Assembly (NCBI GenBank): GCA_003116975.1
Contig: BGKB01000044.1
Location: forward strand, 508,940 to 572,939
Direction: 5' to 3'
Length of the DNA stretch: 64,000 nucleotides
Source: Aurantiochytrium sp. KH105
Lineage: Eukaryota; Sar; Bigyra; Thraustochytrida; Thraustochytriidae
The translations under genes were made by a program, and so were the position numbers. This document shows, piece after piece, positions 540 to 63,690 of the stretch. Positions within the stretch are counted from its first letter, which is position 1; the number at the start of each line of letters is the position of its first letter. The notes under the pieces were generated by a model. It did not search any database. It was not told the origin of the DNA and was given only the letters and a program-made list of their open reading frames with translations.

Positions 540-1022
540 AGGGAAAGAATGGCCCCAAGGTCTGCACAACACGGCATTTACTGCCAATTCATGCGCGGCT
601 CTCCTCGTGGACGAAAGAGAGCCAAGATTCGATGGGGCGCCTGCCCTGCTCAGCAATAGGAATGCTTTGCTTTGCTTTGCTTTGCTTTGCTTTGCTTATT
701 GGGCTCAAAGAACTGAGATGGGCTGGCGGCGTTGTCAATCATGCGAGGAGCAAAAATCCCACAAACGACGAAGAAGTGAGCGAGTAGAAAGAAACAAATG
801 AATGATAGACACAGTCAATTGACACAAAACATTTATCTTTCGAGTTGAGCCGCGACGATTTTGGTGGCTCTTTCAAGCTAATACACAGACTGATGGAAGG
901 ATCGATGCCGCGGGCTGCTGCTCTGAGCAGTGCACTTTTTGGAGATTATCTTCCATTCGCTGGTCGAGCGTCCTTTTTGTCAGTCGTTGGGGTGGATCTC
1001 TCACTGTCTCCTGACTTTCGTT
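540..1022. other. Convergent intergenic spacer, SF3A1 / JmjC
   Basis: This spacer lies between two 3' ends. It contains a CTTTG pentanucleotide array and AT-richer sequence around 790-845 that could serve as 3'-end signals. I see no supportable gene in it. Confidence 0.5.
664..697. repeat. (CTTTG)n microsatellite
   Basis: About six to seven uninterrupted copies of a CTTTG/GCTTT unit, 125 bp past the SF3A1 stop codon. Confidence 0.9.
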
Positions 1023-2468
1023 TTAAAAAGGAGGCTGGGGCATGAAGGCCGCTGCCGTGTCCTTGCCGTGGACCCAGTAGTTGACCATAACGGAGGATCC
1101 CATGTTCTGCACATGATGGAACCAGCCCGCGGGAAGGTAGAGAAGCTCACCAGGCTTGATGTCGACAATCATTTTGTTGTAATGCGAAGAGGACACTCCA
1201 GGGGCGTTCGGGTCCGCAGGGTCGCCGTAGCAAAGACCTTTGTTCCGGCCAACGCAGCGCGGCTTGAGCAACTGAAAGTCCGAGGGTGGCGCAATGGTGA
1301 AGCGCTTGGTGCCGGCAATCATCGCGACAATGTTGTCACAGCAGTCCGAGTGCGAGGCCGTACCAGACACACCGTTACCCATCCAGAGGCTACCGCGCTG
1401 CATCCAGCGGCGGGGAAAGAGGGGTGGAGGGCGAATGCCAAGCTTTTGCAGCGCATGCGGCTTGATCTTCATGTTACGCGGGAGGTTGCGGAGGCCCTTC
1501 TTCTTGACAAGCGTCGCGTTGGCGCGCAAGGCCGCGAGACCGGGGCCAAGATCGACCTCGCCATCGAAGCGAGCGTTGGGCCGGTACTGCGCAAAGGTCT
1601 CAGTGGTCACATCATGGCCATCGAAGGGAAACATCTCGTTGAGTTCCTCAAAAGTGAAGGCGCGGCCAGTGTAGCCAGACTTGCGCATGTTGTCCATGCG
1701 AAAGAGCACAGGCTGACCAAACTTGCGAAAGCGCGCGCGAAAGTTCTGTTCATTGAGCTGAATGCTACGCTTGAGCACGGGAACGAAGCGTTTGATTGGG
1801 TTTGCGCGGTACAGACGAGCGTACTCTTGCACGCCCCACCACTCGTTCTGCTTGGGCGCGAGGTCGGGGACAACGACGTCAGCGCTTGCAGCGTACTCGG
1901 CGTAGTTCTCAAAGATGTCCGAGTCCTTCATGCTCGTGAGATCGTGAAAAGGCTCGAGATACAGGTCGGCGACCTCGGCAGCTGCCGACTCGTCGGCGCG
2001 CTCGTCCTCCTCCCGCTCGGCCTCCTCCTCGGCGGTTTCCTCGGCAAGGTTGGGGTTGACATCACCGGGAGAGGGATCTCCATTCTCAACGCGACGGCTA
2101 AAGTGCTCGTTGCCGTTCTCGCTGGTAATCTCGAAGCCGTCGTTGCCAACGGCCGGAAGAGTGGTCCCGCCACTGCCAGCCATCGTCGGAGCTGCGCGGC
2201 TGTTGCCACTTCCGGCGACAACAACGTCCTGCTTGCCATGCGCCGCGTAGCCGAACATGAACGATGCCGAGACGAGCATGAGAACCACCACGTACATGAA
2301 CCACCGCGACTGCTTGACGGCATTAACCTGGTGCATGACGCGCTCCATGACCGGCGCGTTGCGCGCGCGACCGCTCAAAAGGCCTGTCTGGCCATCCTCG
2401 GTGGGCGAGGAGGCTCTCGAGTACGGCAGACTGCCGCTGCTGCTGCTGTGCTTGCGCGCCTTCATCAT
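1023..2468 (-). CDS. Membrane-anchored JmjC/cupin_8 2-oxoglutarate oxygenase
   Basis: 481 residues, starting at tandem ATGs (2468 or 2465). A Ser-rich cytosolic N-terminus is followed by one hydrophobic segment (about residues 57-76) and an acidic Glu-rich stalk (about 140-165), giving a type II topology. The C-terminal half (about 225-470) is a JmjC/cupin_8 fold: the metal triad is visible as HSD (H373, D375) and a distal His in GWFHHV (451/452), with TKRF supplying a lysine (388) near the likely 2OG site and a PAGWFH motif typical of JMJD5/TYW5-like proteins. The expected reaction is Fe(II)- and 2-oxoglutarate-dependent hydroxylation of a protein or RNA; the substrate is unknown. The topology puts the catalytic domain in the ER/Golgi lumen. 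It is divergent from the prolyl hydroxylase gene 1.6 kb away, also a membrane-anchored 2OG enzyme. Confidence 0.88.
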   Translation of the reverse strand: MMKARKHSSSSGSLPYSRASSPTEDGQTGLLSGRARNAPVMERVMHQVNAVKQSRWFMYVVVLMLVSASFMFGYAAHGKQDVVVAGSGNSRAAPTMAGSGGTTLPAVGNDGFEITSENGNEHFSRRVENGDPSPGDVNPNLAEETAEEEAEREEDERADESAAAEVADLYLEPFHDLTSMKDSDIFENYAEYAASADVVVPDLAPKQNEWWGVQEYARLYRANPIKRFVPVLKRSIQLNEQNFRARFRKFGQPVLFRMDNMRKSGYTGRAFTFEELNEMFPFDGHDVTTETFAQYRPNARFDGEVDLGPGLAALRANATLVKKKGLRNLPRNMKIKPHALQKLGIRPPPLFPRRWMQRGSLWMGNGVSGTASHSDCCDNIVAMIAGTKRFTIAPPSDFQLLKPRCVGRNKGLCYGDPADPNAPGVSSSHYNKMIVDIKPGELLYLPAGWFHHVQNMGSSVMVNYWVHGKDTAAAFMPQPPF

Positions 2469-4051: not shown

Positions 4052-5701
4052 ATGCAGACCCTTGCCGGAGCGGCAGTGCTATCTTGTGAGCAAGAGAAAG
4101 TGAATCGCACATGTGACGATGAAGAAGACGAGGCGCTGAAAGAACTGCAAGAGATGAGCAAGGCGTGGCTTACAAGCACACTCACACGGCTAGCGACCGT
4201 CGCCGCATCCATTCTCATCCTCGTCGTAGCGATCGCTATCGGCATGAGCGAGGAGATCCAAAATGATCTGAAAAATATCGCACGTGACGTGCCGTTGCCT
4301 CGCACTTTGGCAAGCTACGGCCAACACCACGCAGAGCAGGACGATCAAGTAGAGTTTCCGGTAGACTTTACTGTGCATTTTAATGGCGATGGCCTCGGCG
4401 ACGGCATGTCTGCGTCCTCGCGAGACTGGACGGGCATCGATCCGCTCATCCGCGCCGCCTGCGATGAAATGGAGGAAGTCCTTGAGTTCGCGTCCTATGA
4501 CAATGAAACAATGGCTCGCATCTGCGAGCCGACTCGAGGTGCTCGTCTCTTTACACCCGGGGGCAAGCGAGTCCGCTCTTTTGCAGATGTTCCGGCCAAC
4601 GGAACGCGCATCTATCTCGTGCCCCAAGGTCTGCAGTTTGTCTTTCCTCTTGGCAAAGTTGGTACTGAGATTGTAGCCACCAATGTGGTCTCACCGCTTG
4701 CAGACAAAGTCGTCAAGCTACGGCAATTGACCGAGTCTCCGCGGGTGTTCAGTTTGGAAAACTTTATCTCCGACGAGGAGATTGACGCGATTTTAAAGCA
4801 CAATGCTGATCTCGTCAAACCTAGCGAGGTTGGGTTCTCCGGTTGGAGAGACTCTACACGGACAAGCAGCACGGCCTGGGACATGCACTCGTTGGCCTCG
4901 CGCGCCGTGCGCAGACGTAGCTTTGACTTGCTCGGCATGGACTTCGACAATGACATGGCCGATGCCCTTCAGGTACTCCGGTACAATCTCAGCGAGTGGT
5001 ACAAGCCTCATCTGGACTCCTTCGACAAAAAGGCGTACGATGGAACCGTTCCCAAGGTCAAAAACGGGACAAACCGATTTGCAACAATCTTTCTTTACCT
5101 TTCTGACGTCGAAGAAGGCGGGCATACGGTTTTTCCTCTTTCGACGACGCATGAGGGCTACAATGGCGAGAAAATTGTACATGACGGAACCGTGCGGTCG
5201 CCGGGATACATTGCCGATAAAGACGCGCGCTGGGCGTGCAACACTTCCTCGACTGCATTGCGGTCCGGTACTCGTCGTGGCTCCGCACTTCTCTTTTACA
5301 GTCAGACTGCGGATGGTGAGATTGATCCTTACAGCTTGCACGGCGGCTGTCCTGTTGTCAAGGGCATCAAGTACTCTGCCAACGTCTGGGTCTGGAATCG
5401 ACCAAAGCCGTCAAAGTCTGACGCCAAGGACGCTGGGGCAAGGCCTGCGCCCGATCTTAATTCGATTCAAATGCATTTCCACAACCGTCGCGCAGAAAAG
5501 GTCAACTTGTTCTGGGACGATGGGACGGAAGACATGATTTTCCAGGCAGAGATCCTTCCTGGGGAGATGCAGAGCATGACGACGTACCACGGTCACAGCT
5601 TTGTGGTGCGAGACGCGGATTCCAACGAGGCCTTGCACGCTTTTACAGCAAATGACAAGCTTCACAAGGGGAAGCAGCACGTGGAGGTCATCAAGGCGTG
5701 A
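4052..5701 (+). CDS. Prolyl 4-hydroxylase (P4Hc) with C-terminal VHL-beta-like domain
   Basis: 549 residues. The frame is open a little further upstream but only from GTG; the first ATG is at 4052. A transmembrane segment (about 47-64) gives a type II protein, probably ER. Residues about 90-210 are an N-terminal region containing a GARLFTPGGKRV stretch that weakly resembles a doublecortin/ubiquitin-like fold. The P4Hc domain (about 230-450) has YKPHLD (H320, D322), a distal SLHGGCPV His (430) and KGIKYSANVW (K440), the Fe and 2OG ligands of prolyl 4-hydroxylases. After a short linker, residues about 470-540 read like the beta domain of the von Hippel-Lindau protein: hFHNRR, a VNLFWDDG strand, LPGE, and TTYHGHSFVVRDA. 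The VHL hydroxyproline-pocket Ser-Tyr-x-Gly-His is matched by T511-Y512-x-G514-H515; the pocket Trp after His is Phe517. It likely hydroxylates and may bind the same kind of substrate. Confidence 0.92.
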   Translation: MQTLAGAAVLSCEQEKVNRTCDDEEDEALKELQEMSKAWLTSTLTRLATVAASILILVVAIAIGMSEEIQNDLKNIARDVPLPRTLASYGQHHAEQDDQVEFPVDFTVHFNGDGLGDGMSASSRDWTGIDPLIRAACDEMEEVLEFASYDNETMARICEPTRGARLFTPGGKRVRSFADVPANGTRIYLVPQGLQFVFPLGKVGTEIVATNVVSPLADKVVKLRQLTESPRVFSLENFISDEEIDAILKHNADLVKPSEVGFSGWRDSTRTSSTAWDMHSLASRAVRRRSFDLLGMDFDNDMADALQVLRYNLSEWYKPHLDSFDKKAYDGTVPKVKNGTNRFATIFLYLSDVEEGGHTVFPLSTTHEGYNGEKIVHDGTVRSPGYIADKDARWACNTSSTALRSGTRRGSALLFYSQTADGEIDPYSLHGGCPVVKGIKYSANVWVWNRPKPSKSDAKDAGARPAPDLNSIQMHFHNRRAEKVNLFWDDGTEDMIFQAEILPGEMQSMTTYHGHSFVVRDADSNEALHAFTANDKLHKGKQHVEVIKA

Positions 5702-39836: not shown

Positions 39837-41270
39837 TTACCATACATAGGAGTTTGAGTTGCTGCCATTGTCGACCTGGCCCTTTTTCATGAACCATCGC
39901 TCATCGTGCCAAGCTACGCCCGGCTTGCTCCATTCAAAGGTTGTAAGACGTCCATCGACGTGCACACTTGCCGTATGCCGAATTGTGCTGGGGACGTCGA
40001 GCATCTTGAGCCCGCGCGATGAAAGTGTTTGGGGCAAGTTGCGACGCATAATCGTGATATGCTTTGTAAAGGTCGAGGTGCTCGTGCCAATGAAGGTTGC
40101 GGCATGCGTACATATCAATTGCTCCAGAGCAGCAGCCACTGATCCAAAAAGTTGCGGATGAGCGAAAGCAGCCTTGAGTTGGTCGAGCGCTTCCTTAACC
40201 TGCGGATACTCGCCAGAGAAGAGATCAGGAGAGAAAATCTTGCGGCCCGTGCGCTTCATGAGAGGCGCAAGAAAGGTATGCGAGGGTTTGGCCACGGTTG
40301 CGACAAACAAAGGATCGGCCTCGTCCACGTGGACCTTTTGCAAAGCTTGCGCGAAAGCTTCAGCGCTATGCATCTGGGTTTTCATCATATTCGCGACGTC
40401 ACCAAGACGAACATGCACAGCGCTAAAAATCTCGCCCTCAAAGACTTCCGCGTGCACGAGTGAGGCTATTTCTTGCAGCGCTGGCGCGTATCGTACGCTC
40501 GACCACATGGAATATCGCAGCCAGTGATAGCTAAAGAACCTGCCCTTGGAAAAGACAACATGTGCTGCGTCGGCGTTTTTCAAGAGCTGCATGTGTGCTC
40601 TCGCGCGAAGAACATTGGGTGTAAGTAGCGGACTTTGAATATCTACAGTCTCGACTTTGTTTGGATCCAGAGACGCAATAAAGTCCACGAGCTTTACGTC
40701 TATTGGCACGAGGTCAATGCCGAGTGTGTTTACCATGGCAGGGAAATCAAAGAGGCGGTCCGCGGCCAGCAGCGAGCTTGCATCTGCTGCAAGGTACCTG
40801 AATGCCAAGTTCAGATGACCGGAGGCCATGGGCACAATGAGTTCACGGCCAAGACTTTGTGCAATAAAGAGCGCGCTCGCCAAACATATGACCTGGTTTC
40901 CGAGTCCTCCGGACGGCGTGTAGACATAGTACTTTTTGGTGGAATCGAGCGCACCATACTTTGCATCCGTCGTTCGCGGCATAACTTCGTCAAGGGAGGG
41001 TCGACGATCTCCGAGGTCTTGAGCAGCACTCTTGCTAGAGTCGTCCTTGTCTTCTGGTGAACCAAGCCAGTCATACTGGTACGCCGTGCCCTCTTGGTCA
41101 CCCTGGCCCAGAGCGTTCGAATGTCGAAAGCAATCTACGCACTCTATGCTCTCATTTACGTTTGCAGAGAATTGAAGCAGGGAGGCTGACTTGTGCAGCG
41201 TCAGGATTACGGTCAGCACCGAAAATACAAGGGGCACAGAGTACCTTGCTGCGCGAGTTCGCCAGTTCAT
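39837..41270 (-). CDS. GDP-fucose protein O-fucosyltransferase-like, type II membrane protein
   Basis: 477 residues. One signal-anchor span (about 10-29) gives a Golgi-type type II topology, followed by a stem rich in Asp/Ser. The catalytic domain shows YVYTPSGGLGNQVICLASALFIAQSLGREL (donor-site GGLGNQ-like loop), FSAVHVRLGDV (the HxRxGD motif of O-fucosyltransferases, GT65/GT68/GT106-like), and THAATFIGTSTSTFTKHI near the C-terminus. These enzymes transfer fucose, and in plants rhamnose, to Ser/Thr or to polysaccharides. The acceptor is unknown. A TTGC repeat lies just outside the start codon. Confidence 0.85.
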   Translation of the reverse strand: MNWRTRAARYSVPLVFSVLTVILTLHKSASLLQFSANVNESIECVDCFRHSNALGQGDQEGTAYQYDWLGSPEDKDDSSKSAAQDLGDRRPSLDEVMPRTTDAKYGALDSTKKYYVYTPSGGLGNQVICLASALFIAQSLGRELIVPMASGHLNLAFRYLAADASSLLAADRLFDFPAMVNTLGIDLVPIDVKLVDFIASLDPNKVETVDIQSPLLTPNVLRARAHMQLLKNADAAHVVFSKGRFFSYHWLRYSMWSSVRYAPALQEIASLVHAEVFEGEIFSAVHVRLGDVANMMKTQMHSAEAFAQALQKVHVDEADPLFVATVAKPSHTFLAPLMKRTGRKIFSPDLFSGEYPQVKEALDQLKAAFAHPQLFGSVAAALEQLICTHAATFIGTSTSTFTKHITIMRRNLPQTLSSRGLKMLDVPSTIRHTASVHVDGRLTTFEWSKPGVAWHDERWFMKKGQVDNGSNSNSYVW

Positions 41271-41354: not shown

Positions 41355-42578
41355 GCTGTCTCGCCCGCTTCAGCCATACGGTCAGCCTGCCAGCGCTCCA
41401 GCCGGCAAGCAAGCGCTACCTTGGATCTGCACGACCTGTCGCACGTAGGTCTCGCGCGGGCTTCTTCTGCACTCCCAACGTTTAGCACACTGCTCGTCTC
41501 CCGGCCGATGGATCTTTCCAAGCTTTCTGCTACTAATCGATCGCCAACCAGTCGACTCGACTCTGGCCCACCGGCGCTTGCAGAGCTGGTCGTCTGCTTG
41601 CTCGTCTCGCCGGCTGTTTCCCTTTCTCGCAAAGCCTTTCAGCAGCCCTGGGGTCAAGGGGTCGGCTTGTCTGGGACGTCGCGACAGTGAATGTGGTCCA
41701 CGTCCGAACGGCTCGCCACTGTGCACCTCCTCCTCCTCCTCGACAGGCCCTCGGCGCTCTCTTCCACGCGGGCGCGCAGCCGGGGCGACACCGCACGACC
41801 CGGCACGGCCCGACACGACACGACACGACCCGACACGAGACGAGACGAGGCGCCCGCGGCCTCCCCCTCGCGCGGAGTCTCTTTCTCGCGCCGTTGCGGA
41901 CTTGCGCGTGCTGCCCTGCTTGCCCCGCTTGCACGCACACCGCGGCCCCGCTGCCTGCACTGCCTGCCTGCTTGCGCCACGATATCGCCGCCGCGCTGCT
42001 CGGGCCCGGCAGCCAGCCAGGCAAGCCGGCGCCACGCGGGGCGGCGCGGGGCGGCGCAGACCGCGTCTCGCGCGGCCGCGCGAGGGCTGCGGCAGAGGCG
42101 GGCGAGCCAGCCAGCAAGCAAGCAAGCAAACAAGCAAGCAGAAGAAGCGCGGCGCGGAGCTCGCGAGATCGAGGAGCGCGCGTGTCCCCGGGTCCGGTGC
42201 GGGCCGCGCGGGGCGTCCAGAATGCAGAAGAGCAGGGGTTTCGGGGCGGGGCGCGCGCAGCGGACCCGGCGGCGGCGCGGGGGCTCGCGGCGACCATTCC
42301 TGCCGCAGAGCCGCAGACGAGGAAACAGAGAAACAGAGAAACAATCGCACGATCAGATCAGAGAAAGCAAGCATCAGACCTCGAACCACCGCGAGCGAGC
42401 GACCCGCGCTCGATCGATCGACGCGCGAGGAGGCGGTCCGCGGTCGCGCTTCACGTGCGTGCGCGCGTGCTCGCCCGCCCGCCCGCCCGCTTGCCCGCGG
42501 CCCCGCGCGCGAGGTCGGTCGCCGCGGCGTCGGCGGTTGAGGTGCAGTGCAGTTGGTGGCGGCGACGCGCCCGGAGAA

Positions 42579-42582
<4 letters not shown>

Positions 42583-42636
<54 letters not shown>
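42583..42636 (+). repeat. (CAG)18 tract in GMP synthase leader
   Basis: Eighteen CAG units ending 9 bp before the ATG at 42646 and in frame with the coding sequence, but with no upstream ATG (only GTG). Confidence 0.95.
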
Positions 42637-42638
<2 letters not shown>

Positions 42639-42645
42639 CGCGAAG

Positions 42646-44340
42646 ATGGACGCGGACAAGGCCGGCGCGACGCGCGAGGAGGAGAGCGCGCGCGTGAGCG
42701 AGGCCGTGAAGCAGGCGCGCGCCCTCGCGGGCCAGCTGACGAGCGACCGCAAGCAGATCGCGATCCTGGACTTCGGCAGCCAGTTTAGCCATTTGATAGC
42801 GAGGCGGATTCGGGAGCAGCACGTGTTCTGCGAGCTGTACAGCTGCCTGGTGGATGTCGAGGTGCTCAAGAGCGCGCACGTGATTGGCGTCGTGCTCTCG
42901 GGCGGACCTGCATCCGTGTACGATGAGGGCTCCCCCCACGTGGCCGACGGCTTCTGGGACTGGGTCGAGAGCGAGAAGATCCCCGTGCTGGGCGTGTGCT
43001 ACGGCCTCCAGGAGATGGTCAACCACTACGGCGGCAAGGTGGAGGCCTCGGCGAAGCGCGAGTACGGCAAGTCCATCGTGCACCGGACCGGAGGCCACGG
43101 CGAGAAGCGCGGCGACCTCTTTTTTGAGATCCCCGACGAGGACGACGTGGTGTGGATGAGCCACGGAGACAAGGTCACCGAGCTGCCCCCGGGATTCAAG
43201 AGCATTGCCCACACGGACAACTGCCCCGAGACGGCCATTGCCGGTCCCGAGGACGGCGTGCCTCTGTACGGCATCCAGTTCCACCCGGAAGTGACCCACA
43301 CCAAGCACGGCGCGAAGCTGATCAAGAACTTTGCCGTCGACATTTGCGGCGCCCCCACGGACTGGGACATGAAGGACATTGCCGAGGAGTTCATCCGCGA
43401 GGTCCGCGAAAAGGTCGGTCCTGACGGCCATGTGATTGGCGCCGTTTCGGGCGGCGTGGACTCGTCGGTGGGCGCTGTTCTCCTGCACCGCGCGATTGGC
43501 GACCGTTTCCATGCCATTCTGGTGGACAACGGCTGCCTGCGCCTGAACGAGGCGGAGCGCGTGCTGGACCGTCTGCGCAACCGCGAGGGTATCGACCTGC
43601 ATCTTGTCGACGCCTCGGACCGCTTTTTGGCTGCGCTCAAGGGCGTTGAGGATCCGGAGGTGAAGCGCAAGACGATCGGTGCGCTCTTCATCGACGTCTT
43701 CCAGGAGGAGGCGGAGCGTATCAAGAAGGAGGTGCCGGAGGGGCACACAGTGGACTTTTTGCTGCAGGGCACTCTTTACCCTGATGTGATTGAGTCCATC
43801 AGCTACAAGGGCCCAAGCGCCACGATCAAGTCGCACCACAACGTCGGCGGTCTCCCGGAGAAGATGAGTCTCAAGCTCATTGAGCCTCTTCGCGAGCTGT
43901 TCAAGGATGAGGTGCGTTCTCTAGGCCTTGCGCTGGGCCTCGAGCACGAGTCTGTGTTCCGGCACCCGTTTCCCGGCCCGGGTCTTGCGATTCGTATCCT
44001 CGGCGAGGTAAACAAGGAGAGCTGCGACAAACTGCGTCTTGCGGACGACATTGCCATTTCTGAGATTCGCAAGGCTGGCATCTACGACGACATTGCGCAG
44101 GCCTTTGTGGTGCTGCTCCCGGTCAAGTCTGTCGGCGTGATGGGCGACGGCCGTACGTACGAGAACGTGGTTGCTCTGCGCTGCGTCAACTCGAGCGACT
44201 TTATGACGGCCAACTGGTACTTTATGGACCACGAGACGCTGGGCCGGATCTCGAACCGCATCATCAACGAGGTCCCTGGCATCAACCGTGTCTGCTACGA
44301 CATTTCGTCCAAGCCCCCAGCCACGATTGAGTGGCTCTAA
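42646..44340 (+). CDS. guaA: GMP synthase (glutamine-hydrolysing)
   Basis: 564 residues. The N-terminal class I glutamine amidotransferase has ILDFGSQFSHLIARRIRE, GVVLSGGPASVYDE, the nucleophile in GVCYGLQE (C118), and the HPEVTH His-Glu pair (H213, E215). The ATP pyrophosphatase domain has the P-loop SGGVDSSVGA (about 268-277), ILVDNGCLRLNE, LLQGTLYPDVIES, IKSHHNVGG, LGLEHESVFRHPFPGPGLAIRI and the C-terminal dimerisation domain with RTYENVVALR...CYDISSKPPATIEW. It converts XMP plus glutamine and ATP to GMP in the cytosol. The ATG at 42646 directly follows an 18-unit CAG tract. Confidence 0.97.
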   Translation: MDADKAGATREEESARVSEAVKQARALAGQLTSDRKQIAILDFGSQFSHLIARRIREQHVFCELYSCLVDVEVLKSAHVIGVVLSGGPASVYDEGSPHVADGFWDWVESEKIPVLGVCYGLQEMVNHYGGKVEASAKREYGKSIVHRTGGHGEKRGDLFFEIPDEDDVVWMSHGDKVTELPPGFKSIAHTDNCPETAIAGPEDGVPLYGIQFHPEVTHTKHGAKLIKNFAVDICGAPTDWDMKDIAEEFIREVREKVGPDGHVIGAVSGGVDSSVGAVLLHRAIGDRFHAILVDNGCLRLNEAERVLDRLRNREGIDLHLVDASDRFLAALKGVEDPEVKRKTIGALFIDVFQEEAERIKKEVPEGHTVDFLLQGTLYPDVIESISYKGPSATIKSHHNVGGLPEKMSLKLIEPLRELFKDEVRSLGLALGLEHESVFRHPFPGPGLAIRILGEVNKESCDKLRLADDIAISEIRKAGIYDDIAQAFVVLLPVKSVGVMGDGRTYENVVALRCVNSSDFMTANWYFMDHETLGRISNRIINEVPGINRVCYDISSKPPATIEWL

Positions 44341-57867: not shown

Positions 57868-58926
57868 CTAGGGCAGCGGCTTTTGCGCCAAAAACTCAGA
57901 GTTGGCCTTCCATTGCGCCTCGTTGCGGCGACCCAAGTAGGCCTCCTTCTTCCAGATCGGGACGCGGGCCTTCAGGGTGTCGATGGCGAAGTGGCAGGCC
58001 TCGAGCGCCGCTGCGCGGTGCGCCGACGACACCGCAATCACGACACTCGTGTCCTGCACGGGACTGTCGCCAATCTTGTGCTCGATGGCCATGTGGAGCA
58101 CGTCAGGCCAACGTTCGCGCGTCTGCGCGCAAACCTTGTGGAGCTCCTTTGTCGCCATGCTTTCGTACGCCGAGTACTCGAGGTGCGTTACAATCTTGTC
58201 CTCGAAAGAATTACGAGTCGTCCCGGAAAAAGTCACAATAGCCCCAGCAAAAGGACTCGCAACCTTTTCGACGAGACCAGCAACGTCCAAAGAGGTTTCC
58301 ACCAGCGCGCAATGCGTCTTGGGCTCTTCTGCTTTCAGCCGCTTCGAGGCCGAATAAATCTTGTTCTGGGATTCCTTGGCGTCCTCCTCCTCGTCGGAGT
58401 CGCTCTCATCGTCCTCCAAGAAGACGAAGCCATTCTCCTGCAGCCTGCGCTCTCTGCTGCTCGCAGGCGCCTCGTCTTCGTCCTCTTCTTCCTCGGAATC
58501 CCCATCGTCTTTATTCGCGCTCTTCTCGAAGCTTTGGCCGGTATCTTTTGCATTGGTGACCTTCTTGTCCTCTGCGAGCTCATCGCCCTCGTCGGAGCGC
58601 TTGGGCCTTTTCTCAGCCATGGATGCCGCATCGTCCTCATCCTGGTCCAAGTCGGTTTTGGCTGCCCCATTCTCGGCTCCAGACTGCTTCTTACGCTTCT
58701 TGCTCTTGCGCTGCGACTTGCTCGAGGCTTGCGAGGCCGTCTCGCTCGCGCCAAGATCCTCTTCGCTCTTGTGCGCGGCGCGCAAGGTGTCGACCAGTCT
58801 GCAGACTTGGTACCCCGCCGCGAAGCCCGCCAGGAGCGCCACGCCCAGCGCCGGCACCAGCGAGGTCGCCGGCCACGCCGTCTTGTTGAGCGTCTGCGCT
58901 CCTCCTCCTCCACCCGCCTCCGCCAT
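57868..58926 (-). CDS. Molybdopterin synthase catalytic subunit (MoaE/MOCS2B) fused to an N-terminal membrane anchor
   Basis: 352 residues from the ATG at 58926. Residues about 14-36 form a hydrophobic segment (WPATSLVPALGVALLAGFAAGYQ), followed by about 160 disordered residues that alternate Lys/Arg-rich and Glu/Asp-rich stretches. The C-terminal 145 residues are MoaE: GAIVTFSGTTRNSFEDKIVTHLEYSAYESMATKEL, VLHMAIEHKIGDSPVQDTSVVIAVSSAHRAAALEACHFAIDTLKARVPIWKKEAYLG and AQWKANSE. The lysines expected at the active site (the KK of PIWKKE, about 326-327, and K340) are present. MoaE with thiocarboxylated MoaD inserts two sulfurs into precursor Z to make molybdopterin. Bacterial and animal MoaE are about 150 residues and soluble, so the membrane anchor and charged linker are unusual. 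Confidence 0.9.
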   Translation of the reverse strand: MAEAGGGGGAQTLNKTAWPATSLVPALGVALLAGFAAGYQVCRLVDTLRAAHKSEEDLGASETASQASSKSQRKSKKRKKQSGAENGAAKTDLDQDEDDAASMAEKRPKRSDEGDELAEDKKVTNAKDTGQSFEKSANKDDGDSEEEEDEDEAPASSRERRLQENGFVFLEDDESDSDEEEDAKESQNKIYSASKRLKAEEPKTHCALVETSLDVAGLVEKVASPFAGAIVTFSGTTRNSFEDKIVTHLEYSAYESMATKELHKVCAQTRERWPDVLHMAIEHKIGDSPVQDTSVVIAVSSAHRAAALEACHFAIDTLKARVPIWKKEAYLGRRNEAQWKANSEFLAQKPLP

Positions 58927-59498
58927 GGCGCCTCCGCGCACGCCCGCTCGGAAGCCTCTCGCGCGTGCTCTCCCTTCCTCTCGCGCTCTTGCTCGCTCGC
59001 CGCTCCTCCTCGGCCTCGCCTCTTCGCGCAATGCTTTCGCTTCTCGTCCTCGTCCTCCTCGTCCTCCTCGTCCTCCTTGTCTTCGTCCTCCTTGTCCTCG
59101 TCCTCCTTGTCGTGGGATCGTCTGCGCCTCTGCACGTATCGCACAGCGTTCCCACCCGTCCCCGACACTCACACACCTTTCGCACACACGTGTCCGCGCA
59201 TAGACGGGAACGCGCCCAGCCACTGCGCCTGGCCGCTGCTGGGTGTGAACTTTCGCATGCGCCTTAATGCCAGGGTCCGGGCGGCTGCGATAAGGAGGCG
59301 GGTTAAGGCGGGCGGAGGGGCGGTGCGTGGCTGCACGGATAGGGGAAGGGAAGGGAAGGGAGGGAAGGAGAGGAGGAGCGCGAGGAAGAGCGGCGCGCAG
59401 AGCGAGAAGAAGAGCAGCAGCGGCAGCAGCAGCAGCGAGCGCAGCGGCAGCAGGCAGCAGGCAGGCAGCAGCGGCAGCAGGTCTTTAGCAGCGGAAGG
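58927..59498. other. Divergent promoter region MoaE / ATP synthase delta
   Basis: 570 bp. A CAG/GCAGCGGCAG-rich stretch (59410-59480) leads into the ATP synthase delta start, and Glu/Asp-type GAC/GAG repeats lie on the MoaE side (59040-59110). No gene. Confidence 0.5.
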
Positions 59499-60806: not shown

Positions 60807-61955
60807 CTACATTACTACACAGCCGCTTTCCTTTGAGTGCCTGGTGTTCGGGTTACCAGGACGCCCATTTCTGGCTTGCGCGCGTTGCTGCGCGCGTGGC
60901 GAACCTTGGTTCTGTCTCGAAGCCGCGCGCTCTTGTGCCGCGAGCTGTCGCGCGAGTTCTTCGTCGGCATCGATCCGACTGCCTCCCTGATCTTCGAGCG
61001 TCTGACCCAAGTCGTTCGGATGTACATACTCGCTCGGCTGTCCAAACGAGGGCGACACCAACTCGGTATCACCATCCACGGCATTCAAAAGCTCCCATCC
61101 AATCATCCCATTGTCGCGATATCCTTGGTCCGTCACGAGCGCATACAAATGACCTTCAATCTTGAACAACGTTGAAAAGTGGTTGTTGCGGAAAAAGACA
61201 CACACTTCGCGCTCCTTGACCGTCTCGTGCAGCTGCGTTAACGCCGTGAAGGTAAACTGCGAGGCAGTCTCCGAAAGAAAGCGCTCAATAATTTCTGCCT
61301 CTTGCAATGTCTGTACGAGCTCCTCGGATGACGTTTGGCCATCCGATCCGGCCTCGCGCGCCGCAATAATGCGATCCATCGCCTGATTGTACGAAAGATT
61401 TGCAATGGCATCGTACACTTCCGTGTCCTGCTGGTCCACCACCCAGCCGTGAAAGAGGTTCACACCCAAAAGGTCGAAGATCGCGACGTGATTGTCGAAT
61501 TCGAAGAGGGAGACGCCTCCGAATCGCACGTTCACGTCTAGACCGTACTGCAAAGTTGGCAAGATATCCATCATCTCTTGCATCGTATGCTGCATGTTCT
61601 CGTCTGCTCCAGAACCATTCTTCTCTACCAGCAAATTAGCGACCATTGCAATCAGGTTCTCGCTGCCAATCGAGCGTCGATCTTTGTGCATTTTAAGCGT
61701 CCCACGCAACAGGAGCACGTTCACAAGCGCGATGAGCGGGCACGGCCCGTTCTCGTTTTGCAGAACTACGCTCACCTCGCGGTTCAGAAACGCCATGCGC
61801 TTCACATCGTGCACGAATCCATGGTCACCTGTCTTGTCTTCCACCTTGCCAGCCTCGCCCTCGCCCTCGCCCGCGCCTCCGCCTTGAGCACCTGCCGTCG
61901 TCGTCGTCGTCGTCGTCGTCAACGTCGTCGCAGTCGGCGCGTCCATCTCCGCCAT
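60807..61955 (-). CDS. MINDY-family K48-specific deubiquitinase with CaaX C-terminus
   Basis: 382 residues from the ATG at 61955. A Thr-rich start encoded by GAC/ACG-like repeats is followed by the MINDY (FAM63) catalytic domain: VVLQNENGPCPLIALVNVLLL carries the nucleophile (C72), ENLIAMVANLLVEKN, LPTLQYGLDVNVRFGGVSLFEF, NLFHGWVVDQQD, and REVCVFFRNNHFSTLFKIEGHLYALVTDQGY with the catalytic His (about 259). MINDY-1 trims Lys48-linked polyubiquitin in the cytosol. A Gln/Arg-rich, ubiquitin-interacting-motif-like tail (ADEELARQLAAQERAAS) leads to a final Cys-Val-Val-Met, a textbook CaaX box predicting farnesylation and membrane targeting. It is divergent from the unknown tail-anchored gene at the right edge. 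Confidence 0.92.
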   Translation of the reverse strand: MAEMDAPTATTLTTTTTTTTAGAQGGGAGEGEGEAGKVEDKTGDHGFVHDVKRMAFLNREVSVVLQNENGPCPLIALVNVLLLRGTLKMHKDRRSIGSENLIAMVANLLVEKNGSGADENMQHTMQEMMDILPTLQYGLDVNVRFGGVSLFEFDNHVAIFDLLGVNLFHGWVVDQQDTEVYDAIANLSYNQAMDRIIAAREAGSDGQTSSEELVQTLQEAEIIERFLSETASQFTFTALTQLHETVKEREVCVFFRNNHFSTLFKIEGHLYALVTDQGYRDNGMIGWELLNAVDGDTELVSPSFGQPSEYVHPNDLGQTLEDQGGSRIDADEELARQLAAQERAASRQNQGSPRAQQRAQARNGRPGNPNTRHSKESGCVVM

Positions 61956-62376
61956 CTTTCTTGGTTCTACCCTCCCTTGCACGGACGCCGCCGCTGGCGA
62001 CGGGAAGTCTCGGGCCAGAAGAAGAAGGAGAAGGGGGAGAAGACGCGGAGGGAGTCGCGCGGGGGTCCCGGCGTGCGTGTCACAGCGCAACGAGCGACGA
62101 GGTCGCTCGCTCCGAGTCGGAGAGAGAATTGCAAAGAGCCTGCTCAACGAAAGCGCCTTTGTGCCGGTTTGTGCGACGCCCTTGTGCAAGGCAGGGAGGG
62201 CGACGAGGCAGGCAAGGTAAAGAAAGAGCTCTTCAGGTGCATGTGTACACGCGGAGACGAGACGAGCAGCGTGCCTCAGGCTGCGACGGGACGGCGACAA
62301 GGCAACAAGCGCAGCCAGCCGTGCGGTGTTCTGCGCCGAGAGAGCGCAGCTGCAGAGGCACCAAGGGACAACAAGA
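61956..62376. other. Divergent promoter region MINDY / unknown gene
   Basis: 420 bp. Purine-rich on the plus strand near 62018-62060. Frames reading through it lack coherence. Confidence 0.45.
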
Positions 62377-63690
62377 ATGGAGGTGCTCATCGTCGCCGGC
62401 GAGCAGCCGACAGGACTGCACTACGCCTTGACGCTGTGCCGCGCCAAGGAGCGCAGGCAAGTGCCGGAGAGCAAGGATGGCCGGCAAATCATCGTCAAGG
62501 TTCATGTCGTTGTCGACGGTCAGGTCTCTGAACGAGCACGCGCAGTAGAGCGCGCTGGTGAAGACTTTGTTGTGGACGGCGACAAGGTGAATACGAAAGG
62601 TACGCTTTGCGTGCACCACGCTCAAGACTTTGACAAGGCAGACCTTGCCTGGGCCGAACGTTGCAAGCCCTTCTTTCTCATGCCGAGGCCCTGGGAGGTC
62701 GCTCGCTGGACAGCGTGGGCGCGGGAACATGCGCAGCCCGGCACGGTCGTTGCCTGCATGCACCCGTGCCTGGACCATATTGGCAAAACCCTTGAGGTCT
62801 TTGACGAGAAGAGCCAAATTTCCATCCTCTTTGGAGCGCCCTTTTACGCAGCCTCTTTTCGCAATGGAGACAATGCCGTTTGCGCATCAAGTCTTGGCTC
62901 AATTCTACTTGCTCGCATTCCACGTGGAAAACAACATCTTTCCATGCAGACGCAGGCCATCGAAGCACCGGGCACACACAATCTTTGGTACCGCGACGAT
63001 ACGTACCGCAACAACTGGCTCTTCGGAACTTTTATGTGGCGTCTTTTCGACGCCTACGCAGCACTCTTGTTCGACCCTGCTCGGCCTCGCTCATTTCACG
63101 AACAACTCGCCGCAGATGGTGGTCTTCACCGCCGGGCCTTGCTCGCCCTCTTTGATGAGGCCCTTGTTCTCATTCCAAAGAAGGAGCGCTCGCTCATTGA
63201 ATTTGTTGGCTCGCCCCTCGCACTGAGCCTGTCTTCAACCCGCTTGCTTCTTCGCATGCCCGACCCAATCTTTAGCATGCTGCAGGGGCTGTGGCCCATG
63301 CTCACACTCACTGGCTTTGTCAGCTCTTGCAATGGTGTCCATCATGGCGATGCTGACGCGCTTCGGGCTGCCCCCTTTTTCAACGGGTTTGTTGTCGAGC
63401 AGACCAAGAAACTCATCGCAGACGGCCTCGCGGTTGCCACCGAGCCAAGCTTTAACGCTTTTCTTGTGGAGCAGTCTTCCAAGGCACACAAAGCTAAAGA
63501 GACCGCTGGCAAAATTCCTTTGCTTGCGCCCGCAGAGATTGAGCCGCATCTACAAAAGACGCCGCTGTTCTCGCTTCCCGTGGCGCTTTGCATCGTCCTC
63601 GCTGTGCTCGCGTGCATCTTCATCGTGCTGCCCGGGTGCTGCGCCGTTGCTCTCAACATCATTCTTCCCAACGAAGCCAAATTTCTCTAA
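62377..63690 (+). CDS. Unknown protein with C-terminal membrane anchor
   Basis: 437 residues from the ATG at 62377 (shorter than the longest frame, which begins 17 codons earlier without a better start). The N-terminus MEVLIVAGEQPTGLHYALTLCRAKER could be a nucleotide-binding strand-loop-helix, and PGTVVACMHPCLDHIGKTLEVFDEKSQISILFGAPFYAASFRNGDNAV suggests an alpha/beta fold, but no family motif is clear. Middle helices contain FGTFMWRLFDAYAALLFDPARPRSFHEQLA and ALFDEALVLIPKKERSLIEFVGSPLALSLSSTRLLL. The last 35 residues are a strong hydrophobic segment (FSLPVALCIVLAVLACIFIVLPGCCAVALNIIL) near the C-terminus, as in tail-anchored proteins. Confidence 0.8.
   Translation: MEVLIVAGEQPTGLHYALTLCRAKERRQVPESKDGRQIIVKVHVVVDGQVSERARAVERAGEDFVVDGDKVNTKGTLCVHHAQDFDKADLAWAERCKPFFLMPRPWEVARWTAWAREHAQPGTVVACMHPCLDHIGKTLEVFDEKSQISILFGAPFYAASFRNGDNAVCASSLGSILLARIPRGKQHLSMQTQAIEAPGTHNLWYRDDTYRNNWLFGTFMWRLFDAYAALLFDPARPRSFHEQLAADGGLHRRALLALFDEALVLIPKKERSLIEFVGSPLALSLSSTRLLLRMPDPIFSMLQGLWPMLTLTGFVSSCNGVHHGDADALRAAPFFNGFVVEQTKKLIADGLAVATEPSFNAFLVEQSSKAHKAKETAGKIPLLAPAEIEPHLQKTPLFSLPVALCIVLAVLACIFIVLPGCCAVALNIILPNEAKFL

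Follow-up and report, generated by a model that had tools for sequence, protein, structure and literature searches.

A predicted prolyl 4-hydroxylase carrying a VHL-beta domain in the same chain in Aurantiochytrium sp. KH105

In animals, the writer and the reader of hydroxyproline (Hyp) are separate proteins. The locus analysed here raises the question whether a prolyl 4-hydroxylase (P4H) and a VHL-beta domain occur together in a single chain, and what such a protein would do. The window, i.e. the whole analysed stretch of 64,000 nucleotides, contains the gene at 4052..5701 (+), at the position originally predicted, as an uninterrupted frame from the first ATG (4052) to the stop codon, encoding 549 aa. 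A second allele (L002), located on contig C116, shares this ATG and shows 98% identity along the entire length. As most matches in the genome were paired as near-identical copies, the assembly seems to carry two haplotypes.

The catalytic region was assigned to residues 216-452 (4697..5407, +), based on a Pfam match to PF13640 (2OG-FeII_Oxy_3; residues 306-448, E 6.5e-11, 43.5 bits, cut-off 27) and on alignment over residues 225-451 (E 1.1e-24) with the algal P4H structure 2jig, which we take to be the Chlamydomonas enzyme. The sequence of human P4H-TM (PDB 6tp5) was matched with E 7.8e-14. Following the 2jig alignment and the residue roles given in the accessible part of PMC7948501, Fe ligands were located at His320-x-Asp322 (5009..5017, +), and the third Fe ligand His430 and the 2OG-binding Lys440 were located at 5339..5371 (+). 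All 12 residues sought were present (Fe ligands H320, D322 and H430; 2OG residues Y311, T359 and K440; further R270, W276, Y317, R342, N444 and W446), the correspondence with P4H-TM being set by spacing and the 2jig alignment rather than by direct alignment with P4H-TM. With this complete set, including the metal and 2OG residues that had been pointed out beforehand, the protein is a predicted prolyl 4-hydroxylase. According to the same source, HIF-P4Hs carry Arg and Leu at the places of Lys440 and Thr359 (PMC7948501, in part); the chain differs from a HIF prolyl hydroxylase (PHD/EGLN) by Lys440 instead of Arg and by a predicted transmembrane anchor, as opposed to a cytosolic protein. Four phage records matched the protein at 41-47% query cover, all inside residues 193-450, and three of them are annotated as oxygenases.

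At the C-terminus, residues 472-547 (5465..5692, +) were assigned to a VHL beta domain. Pfam PF01847 matched residues 472-530 against profile positions 10-68 (E 4e-5, 24 bits, cut-off 21); the C-terminal 87 aa scanned alone gave 28.5 bits, and the allele scored 22.2 bits. For a separate comparison, a profile was built from 74 bacterial VHL domains, containing neither the human nor the window sequence. This bacterial profile scored the fusion protein at 41.4 bits (E 1.1e-11), its allele at 39.9 bits and human VHL, as positive control, at 53.7 bits. Profile-profile comparison (hhalign) returned 98.6%. AlphaFold2, one of the checks proposed beforehand, was run on four sequences from this genome (both alleles of two genes) and predicted seven beta strands (472-478, 484-489, 496-501, 506-511, 516-521, 527-532 and 542-547) and one short helix (535-538) with pLDDT 84.4 and pTM 0.71; the beta domain of human VHL is described as a seven-stranded sandwich in the accessible text of PMC3688787.

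That the match reflects chance or low complexity is next to inconceivable on these data. Such a reading could draw on phmmer searches with the domain alone and on an HMM built from the four copies in this genome, both of which failed to retrieve VHL from the PDB sequences at E values up to 10, as well as on the paralog L003/L004, in which Pfam VHL gave no match when it was scanned alone. Against it stand the Pfam score above cut-off, the hhalign result, and the bacterial profile, which scored the two paralog alleles at 30.9 and 31.4 bits, while 2000 shuffles each of the tails of the window protein and the paralog (4000 in total) reached at best 7.2 and 6.6 bits and the best of the remaining 586 window frames 6.1 bits; on the shuffles and the other frames, a chance or low-complexity match was rejected. 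In line with the original prediction, sequence comparison thus confirms that the chain joins the P4H to a genuine homologue of the VHL beta domain; both domains lie above their Pfam cut-offs. No relatives of the domain were found in bacterial and archaeal genomes searched with the fusion's own domain, nor in viral contigs, in which the whole protein and a cyanobacterial VHL domain likewise found no relatives.

Besides PF13640 and PF01847, no Pfam family was matched in the chain at E <= 1, which includes the peptide-substrate-binding TPR domain of the collagen P4H type, and NCBIfam likewise gave no match at E <= 1. A transmembrane segment is predicted at residues 47-65 (4190..4246, +), where the 19-residue Kyte-Doolittle average rises to its highest value, 2.68, at residue 47, the next peak being 1.12. 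Residues 96-215 (4337..4696, +) form a middle region with no Pfam family at E <= 5, which is 52% identical in the paralog L003/L004 (contigs C112/C24); this paralog is 57% identical to the window protein and has the same architecture, with the VHL-like domain after the P4H. By eye, the N-terminal region of a further P4H (L006/L007) resembles residues 96-215. Five sequons lie beyond the hydrophobic segment, three of which align with sequons of the paralog, and four Cys are common to both proteins. Hydropathy suggests a type II protein whose P4H and VHL domains would face the ER/Golgi lumen. The divergent neighbour at 1026-2468 (-) encodes a Cupin_8/JmjC-like protein (PF13621, E 2.6e-27), a family that includes FIH-type 2OG hydroxylases, and is possibly a second 2OG oxygenase adjoining the P4H-VHL gene. 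Other frames of the window were O-fucosyltransferase-like (39840-41270, -) or corresponded to GMP synthase (42547-44337, +), MoaE (57871-59223, -) and a MINDY deubiquitinase (60810-62390, -).

Whether the domain could read hydroxyproline was assessed at the pocket, which in human VHL comprises W88, Y98, I109, S111, Y112, H115 and W117; S111 and H115 hold the Hyp hydroxyl, and Y98 forms a hydrogen bond with the Hyp carbonyl (PMC6105673 and PMC9528729, accessible parts). The Y98H change disrupts Hyp-peptide binding, and Trp117 also belongs to a core aromatic tetrahedron (PMC3688787, accessible part). The register was taken from the PF01847 match of both proteins, in which the window residue minus 400 gives the human number without gaps (15/59 residues identical), and was reproduced ungapped by the bacterial profile for the fusion and for human VHL. 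The resulting pairs are Trp488=88, Gln498=98, Met509=109, Thr511=111, Tyr512=112, His515=115 and Phe517=117. Among the five core residues (W88, Y98, S111, H115, W117), Trp88 (Trp488, pocket wall; 5513..5515, +) and His115 are kept, Ser111 is replaced by Thr, the usual bacterial state, and Trp117 by Phe517, which is still aromatic; the kept His and the two replacements are as they had been described. The place of Tyr98, on which the original prediction was silent, is taken by Gln498 in register with Phe497 beside it (5540..5545, +; from register and paralog alignment), and the pocket Ile109 by Met509. The stretch Thr511-Tyr512-His513-Gly514-His515-Ser516-Phe517 (5582..5602, +), which holds the equivalents of Ser111, Tyr112, His115 and Trp117, is identical in the window gene, its allele and both paralog alleles. 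The proposed alignment of a WDDG element held for its Trp, which falls on human Trp88, and failed for DDG, which does not fall on human FDG in either register. With two core residues kept, Thr for Ser111, Phe for Trp117 and Tyr98 replaced, hydroxyproline reading by this pocket is plausible; because Tyr98 and Trp117 are changed, Hyp selectivity may be weaker than that of human VHL, or absent.

The profile used to gather bacterial VHL-beta domains contained the human sequence. Two cyanobacterial plasmid proteins matched PF01847 (37.6 and 31.3 bits); a scan starting from them returned 18 loci from bacterial genomes, one being the same record again. PF01847 was matched at E <= 0.001 in 21 of 387 genomes of a phylum sample centred on a Verrucomicrobia record and in 56 of 392 genomes of one centred on a Rhodopirellula record. 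The 74 frames used comprise 2 plasmid loci, 16 from a scan with a cyanobacterial query, 1 from a further scan, and 25 and 30 from the phylum samples; the 30 from the Rhodopirellula-centred sample are fewer than its matches, and the frames are neither independent nor random. Repeat loci (L021, L023, L039, L040, L042, L043, L044) were dropped before counting, and some identical proteins (L020, L022) remain in the set. A VHL-like bacterial protein from Litorilituus has been described before (PMC9002001, accessible part).

In 79 bacterial domain copies, N78 is Asn in 78, W88 is Trp in 75, Y98 is Tyr in 74, W117 is Trp in 78 and H115 is His in 71, while position 111 is Thr in 71 and Ser in 6. The five core pocket columns rank 2-6 of 79 by entropy (weighted; 57.8 effective sequences of 74), and the two remaining pocket columns come 25th (109) and 19th (112). 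The chance that the five named columns fall into the top seven is 9e-7 if all columns are equal, a value that is too favourable, since aromatic and core positions are commonly conserved and the loci were gathered by VHL profiles. Pocket conservation could also be partly structural, given the core role of Trp117 and the lower ranks of columns 109 and 112. Within the 74 frames, VHL was matched in 71, DPPIV_N in 54, Peptidase_S9 in 46, S15 in 9, Esterase in 5, sulfatase in 3 and M90 in 2, with 20 families altogether and no 2OG-oxygenase family in any of the 74; frames from whole-genome loci end about 1.5 kb away from the domain, and partner domains lying farther off may have escaped the count. 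DPP-IV-like enzymes act at proline, and the VHL-beta domain therefore recurs beside proline-linked enzymes. In the bacterial loci L028-L038 and L045-L098, the domain was found mostly in DPP-IV-like S9 peptidases, with a nearly invariant pocket of the hydroxyproline type. A 606-aa minus-strand frame of L068 showed five tandem matches to the VHL profile, three of them weak.

In the Aurantiochytrium genome itself, 16 matches were obtained with the window protein and 33, mostly in pairs, with PF13640. From the latter, 12 P4H-like groups were examined, in which several frames are partial genes: seven paired (the window pair, C112/C24, C14/C31, C4/C55, C60/C1, C241/C32 and C78/C169) and five in single copy (C7, C157, C61, C74 and C42). 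The P4H-VHL arrangement is not unique in this genome, a VHL-like domain being present in 4 of the 12 groups, one of them weak, and on either side of the enzyme: after the P4H in the window pair and C112/C24, before it in C60/C1 and C78/C169. The two copies of C60/C1 (L100/L101) scored 18.4 and 16.2 bits (best of 3000 shuffles each, 7.5 and 6.5), and those of C78/C169 (L104/L105) 13.1 and 12.1 bits (best shuffle 8.5), which is weak support. No VHL match under the inclusion threshold was obtained with the bacterial profile in the other 8 groups, and C7, C157, C61, C74 and C42 remained without a match also with a profile including the protist copies. A Pfam scan of one copy each of C60/C1 and C78/C169 did not call VHL, and a genome-wide Pfam VHL search missed these two groups and C112/C24. 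When one sequence per VHL-bearing group was aligned, the only invariant columns among the four were F76, W88, T111, H115 and F117 (human numbering), Phe thus standing for human Trp117 in all of them; near position 98, the aromatic residue is F, F, Y and, as read by eye in a loop of another length, probably W. As two paralog groups carry the VHL-like domain before the P4H, more than one origin of the pairing is probable. The frame at 738-2174 (+) of L104 joins the weakly supported VHL-like domain, ShK and P4H in one chain, ShK being an accessory domain of plant P4Hs. A P4H-free 339-aa frame on the minus strand (L011/L012; contigs C104, C113) showed a marginal VHL match (21.1 and 18.6 bits with Pfam searches, 12-13 with the bacterial profile); within positions 111-117 it retains T, H and W, and it lacks W88 and Y98. 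PfaA-like frames (best 930 bits, below the family cut-off of 1010) would suit a thraustochytrid-like stramenopile without proving one; 11 of 14 control genomes also gave matches at the loose threshold, none of them above the cut-off.

Constraint was compared between alleles and between paralogs. In the VHL core (469-520), 5 of the differences between the alleles are synonymous and 1 is non-synonymous; for the full VHL region (469-549) the counts are 6 and 5, suggesting that the end of the region is little constrained. Between the window gene and the paralog L003/L004, synonymous sites of the VHL core are saturated and pN is 0.29. The seven pocket positions are identical between these paralogs, with 41 of 79 columns of the domain identical overall (hypergeometric 0.008; 0.015 for the 52-residue core), and the VHL domain is 52% identical, compared with 72% for the P4H region.

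The reading favoured here, to which we give an even chance, is a secretory-pathway P4H whose built-in VHL-beta domain would bind Pro/Hyp-peptides and tether substrate or product. The N-terminal anchor would hold the enzyme at the membrane, its catalytic and VHL domains projecting into the lumen of the ER or Golgi; the P4H domain, judged by its family, would hydroxylate prolines of secreted or surface proteins; and the VHL-beta pocket may clamp a proline or 4-hydroxyproline of the same substrate. Such a clamp would retain the substrate or the product at the enzyme, allowing one proline after another to be modified or the completed product to be kept bound. This tethering role would resemble the one that the peptide-substrate-binding domain may have in collagen P4H, the folds of the two domains being unrelated. 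The predicted anchor, the sequons and the catalytic Lys of the collagen-P4H type point to the secretory pathway rather than to a cytosolic oxygen switch. An oxygen-dependent degradation switch of the HIF/PHD/VHL kind, here in a single chain, would have in its favour the same pair of activities as in animals and the presence of Skp1-type POZ domains in the genome, and is nevertheless very improbable: besides the anchor and sequons, Lys stands instead of the HIF-P4H Arg, and the VHL box (PF17211, elongin C) is absent from the chain and reaches at best 16.5 bits in the genome against a cut-off of 22.4. A HIF-like ligase was rejected on the missing VHL box, the anchor with its sequons, and Lys440. 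An E3-ligase role is unlikely, as no VHL box was found in the chain or above cut-off in the genome, and the earlier statement that no elongin-binding alpha domain is visible holds.

The domain might also tether substrate only, binding unmodified proline-rich chains without discriminating Hyp, so that the protein would write and not read; the loss of the Tyr98 hydroxyl and the bacterial relatives on DPP-IV-like enzymes, a family acting at proline, fit this, but the Thr/His pair for the 4-hydroxyl is among the best-kept parts, and the reading appears improbable. A rather unlikely though weightier alternative is a structural or docking module that stabilises the enzyme, makes dimer or partner contacts or binds another ligand, the pocket being a relic. 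This would account for Tyr98 being lost in register and for Trp117 being replaced by Phe, Trp117 having a core role in human VHL (PMC3688787, in part), and for the faster divergence of the VHL domain than of the P4H between paralogs. It is opposed by Trp88, Thr111 and His115, which are among the residues common to all four aligned paralog groups, Thr111 and His115 corresponding to human Ser111 and His115, the holders of the Hyp hydroxyl (PMC6105673, in part).

The findings suggest that the writing and the reading of hydroxyproline can be combined outside the oxygen-sensing pathway of animals. A wider proposal, possible but with the balance somewhat against it, is that the VHL-beta pocket is an ancient Hyp/Pro-peptide reader of extracytoplasmic proteins, older than HIF and repeatedly joined to proline enzymes (bacterial DPP-IV-like enzymes, protist P4H on either side), the elongin box appearing only in animals. 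The P4H-VHL paralogs and the bacterial relatives with their conserved pocket make a role of VHL before HIF testable by binding, and the fusion might supply natural hydroxyproline-binding domains independent of elongin partners. The component families are known; their arrangement, which here comes in either order and recurs in several paralogs, was not found in the open-access papers searched, whose titles and abstract openings describe no natural P4H-VHL fusion and no bacterial VHL-DPPIV fusion; nor was a functional test of bacterial VHL-beta domains found there. VHL is discussed in animals, a choanoflagellate and fungi, and a P4H-VHL fusion is not, in the accessible part of PMC9618697, and the main text of a paper on bacterial prolyl oligopeptidase (PMC4522959) contains neither 'VHL' nor 'Hippel'.

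Compared with known systems, the fusion shares with the beta domain of human pVHL Asn78, Trp88, Tyr112, Gly114 and His115, with Thr for Ser111; it differs in that Tyr98 is not kept, Trp117 is Phe, the alpha domain with the VHL box is missing, and the domain is not a separate ligase subunit but joined to a P4H behind a predicted anchor. The algal P4H 2jig is alike in catalytic domain and Fe ligands, whereas the fusion has in addition the C-terminal VHL-beta domain and the middle region without Pfam family. Human P4H-TM resembles the fusion in its layout of anchor and lumenal P4H and in the matching residues, but has an EF-hand domain, and a VHL domain is not mentioned in the accessible part of PMC7948501. 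The alpha subunit of collagen P4H likewise holds the enzyme in one chain with a domain binding Pro/Hyp-peptides (PMC12433258, in part), which would be a functional analogy, such binding being a prediction for the fusion; there the domain (PSB) is a TPR domain ahead of the enzyme, in place of which the fusion has a VHL-beta domain. For the PSB, binding of Pro-rich and of partly hydroxylated peptides lies at about 20-70 micromolar, and the abstract of the same paper calls its role in the collagen P4H mechanism unknown (PMC12433258). The bacterial proteins with a VHL-beta domain, which are DPP-IV-like S9 peptidases and small proteins, share with the fusion the domain itself, Thr at 111 and, often, a place beside a proline-linked enzyme; unlike in the fusion, this partner is a peptidase. 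An engineered counterpart is a VHL-beta/F-box chimera used with a PHD in plants, where hydroxylase and VHL-beta write and read Hyp as well, but in man-made, separate chains, on a HIF-derived substrate and with degradation as output (PMC13223302, accessible part).
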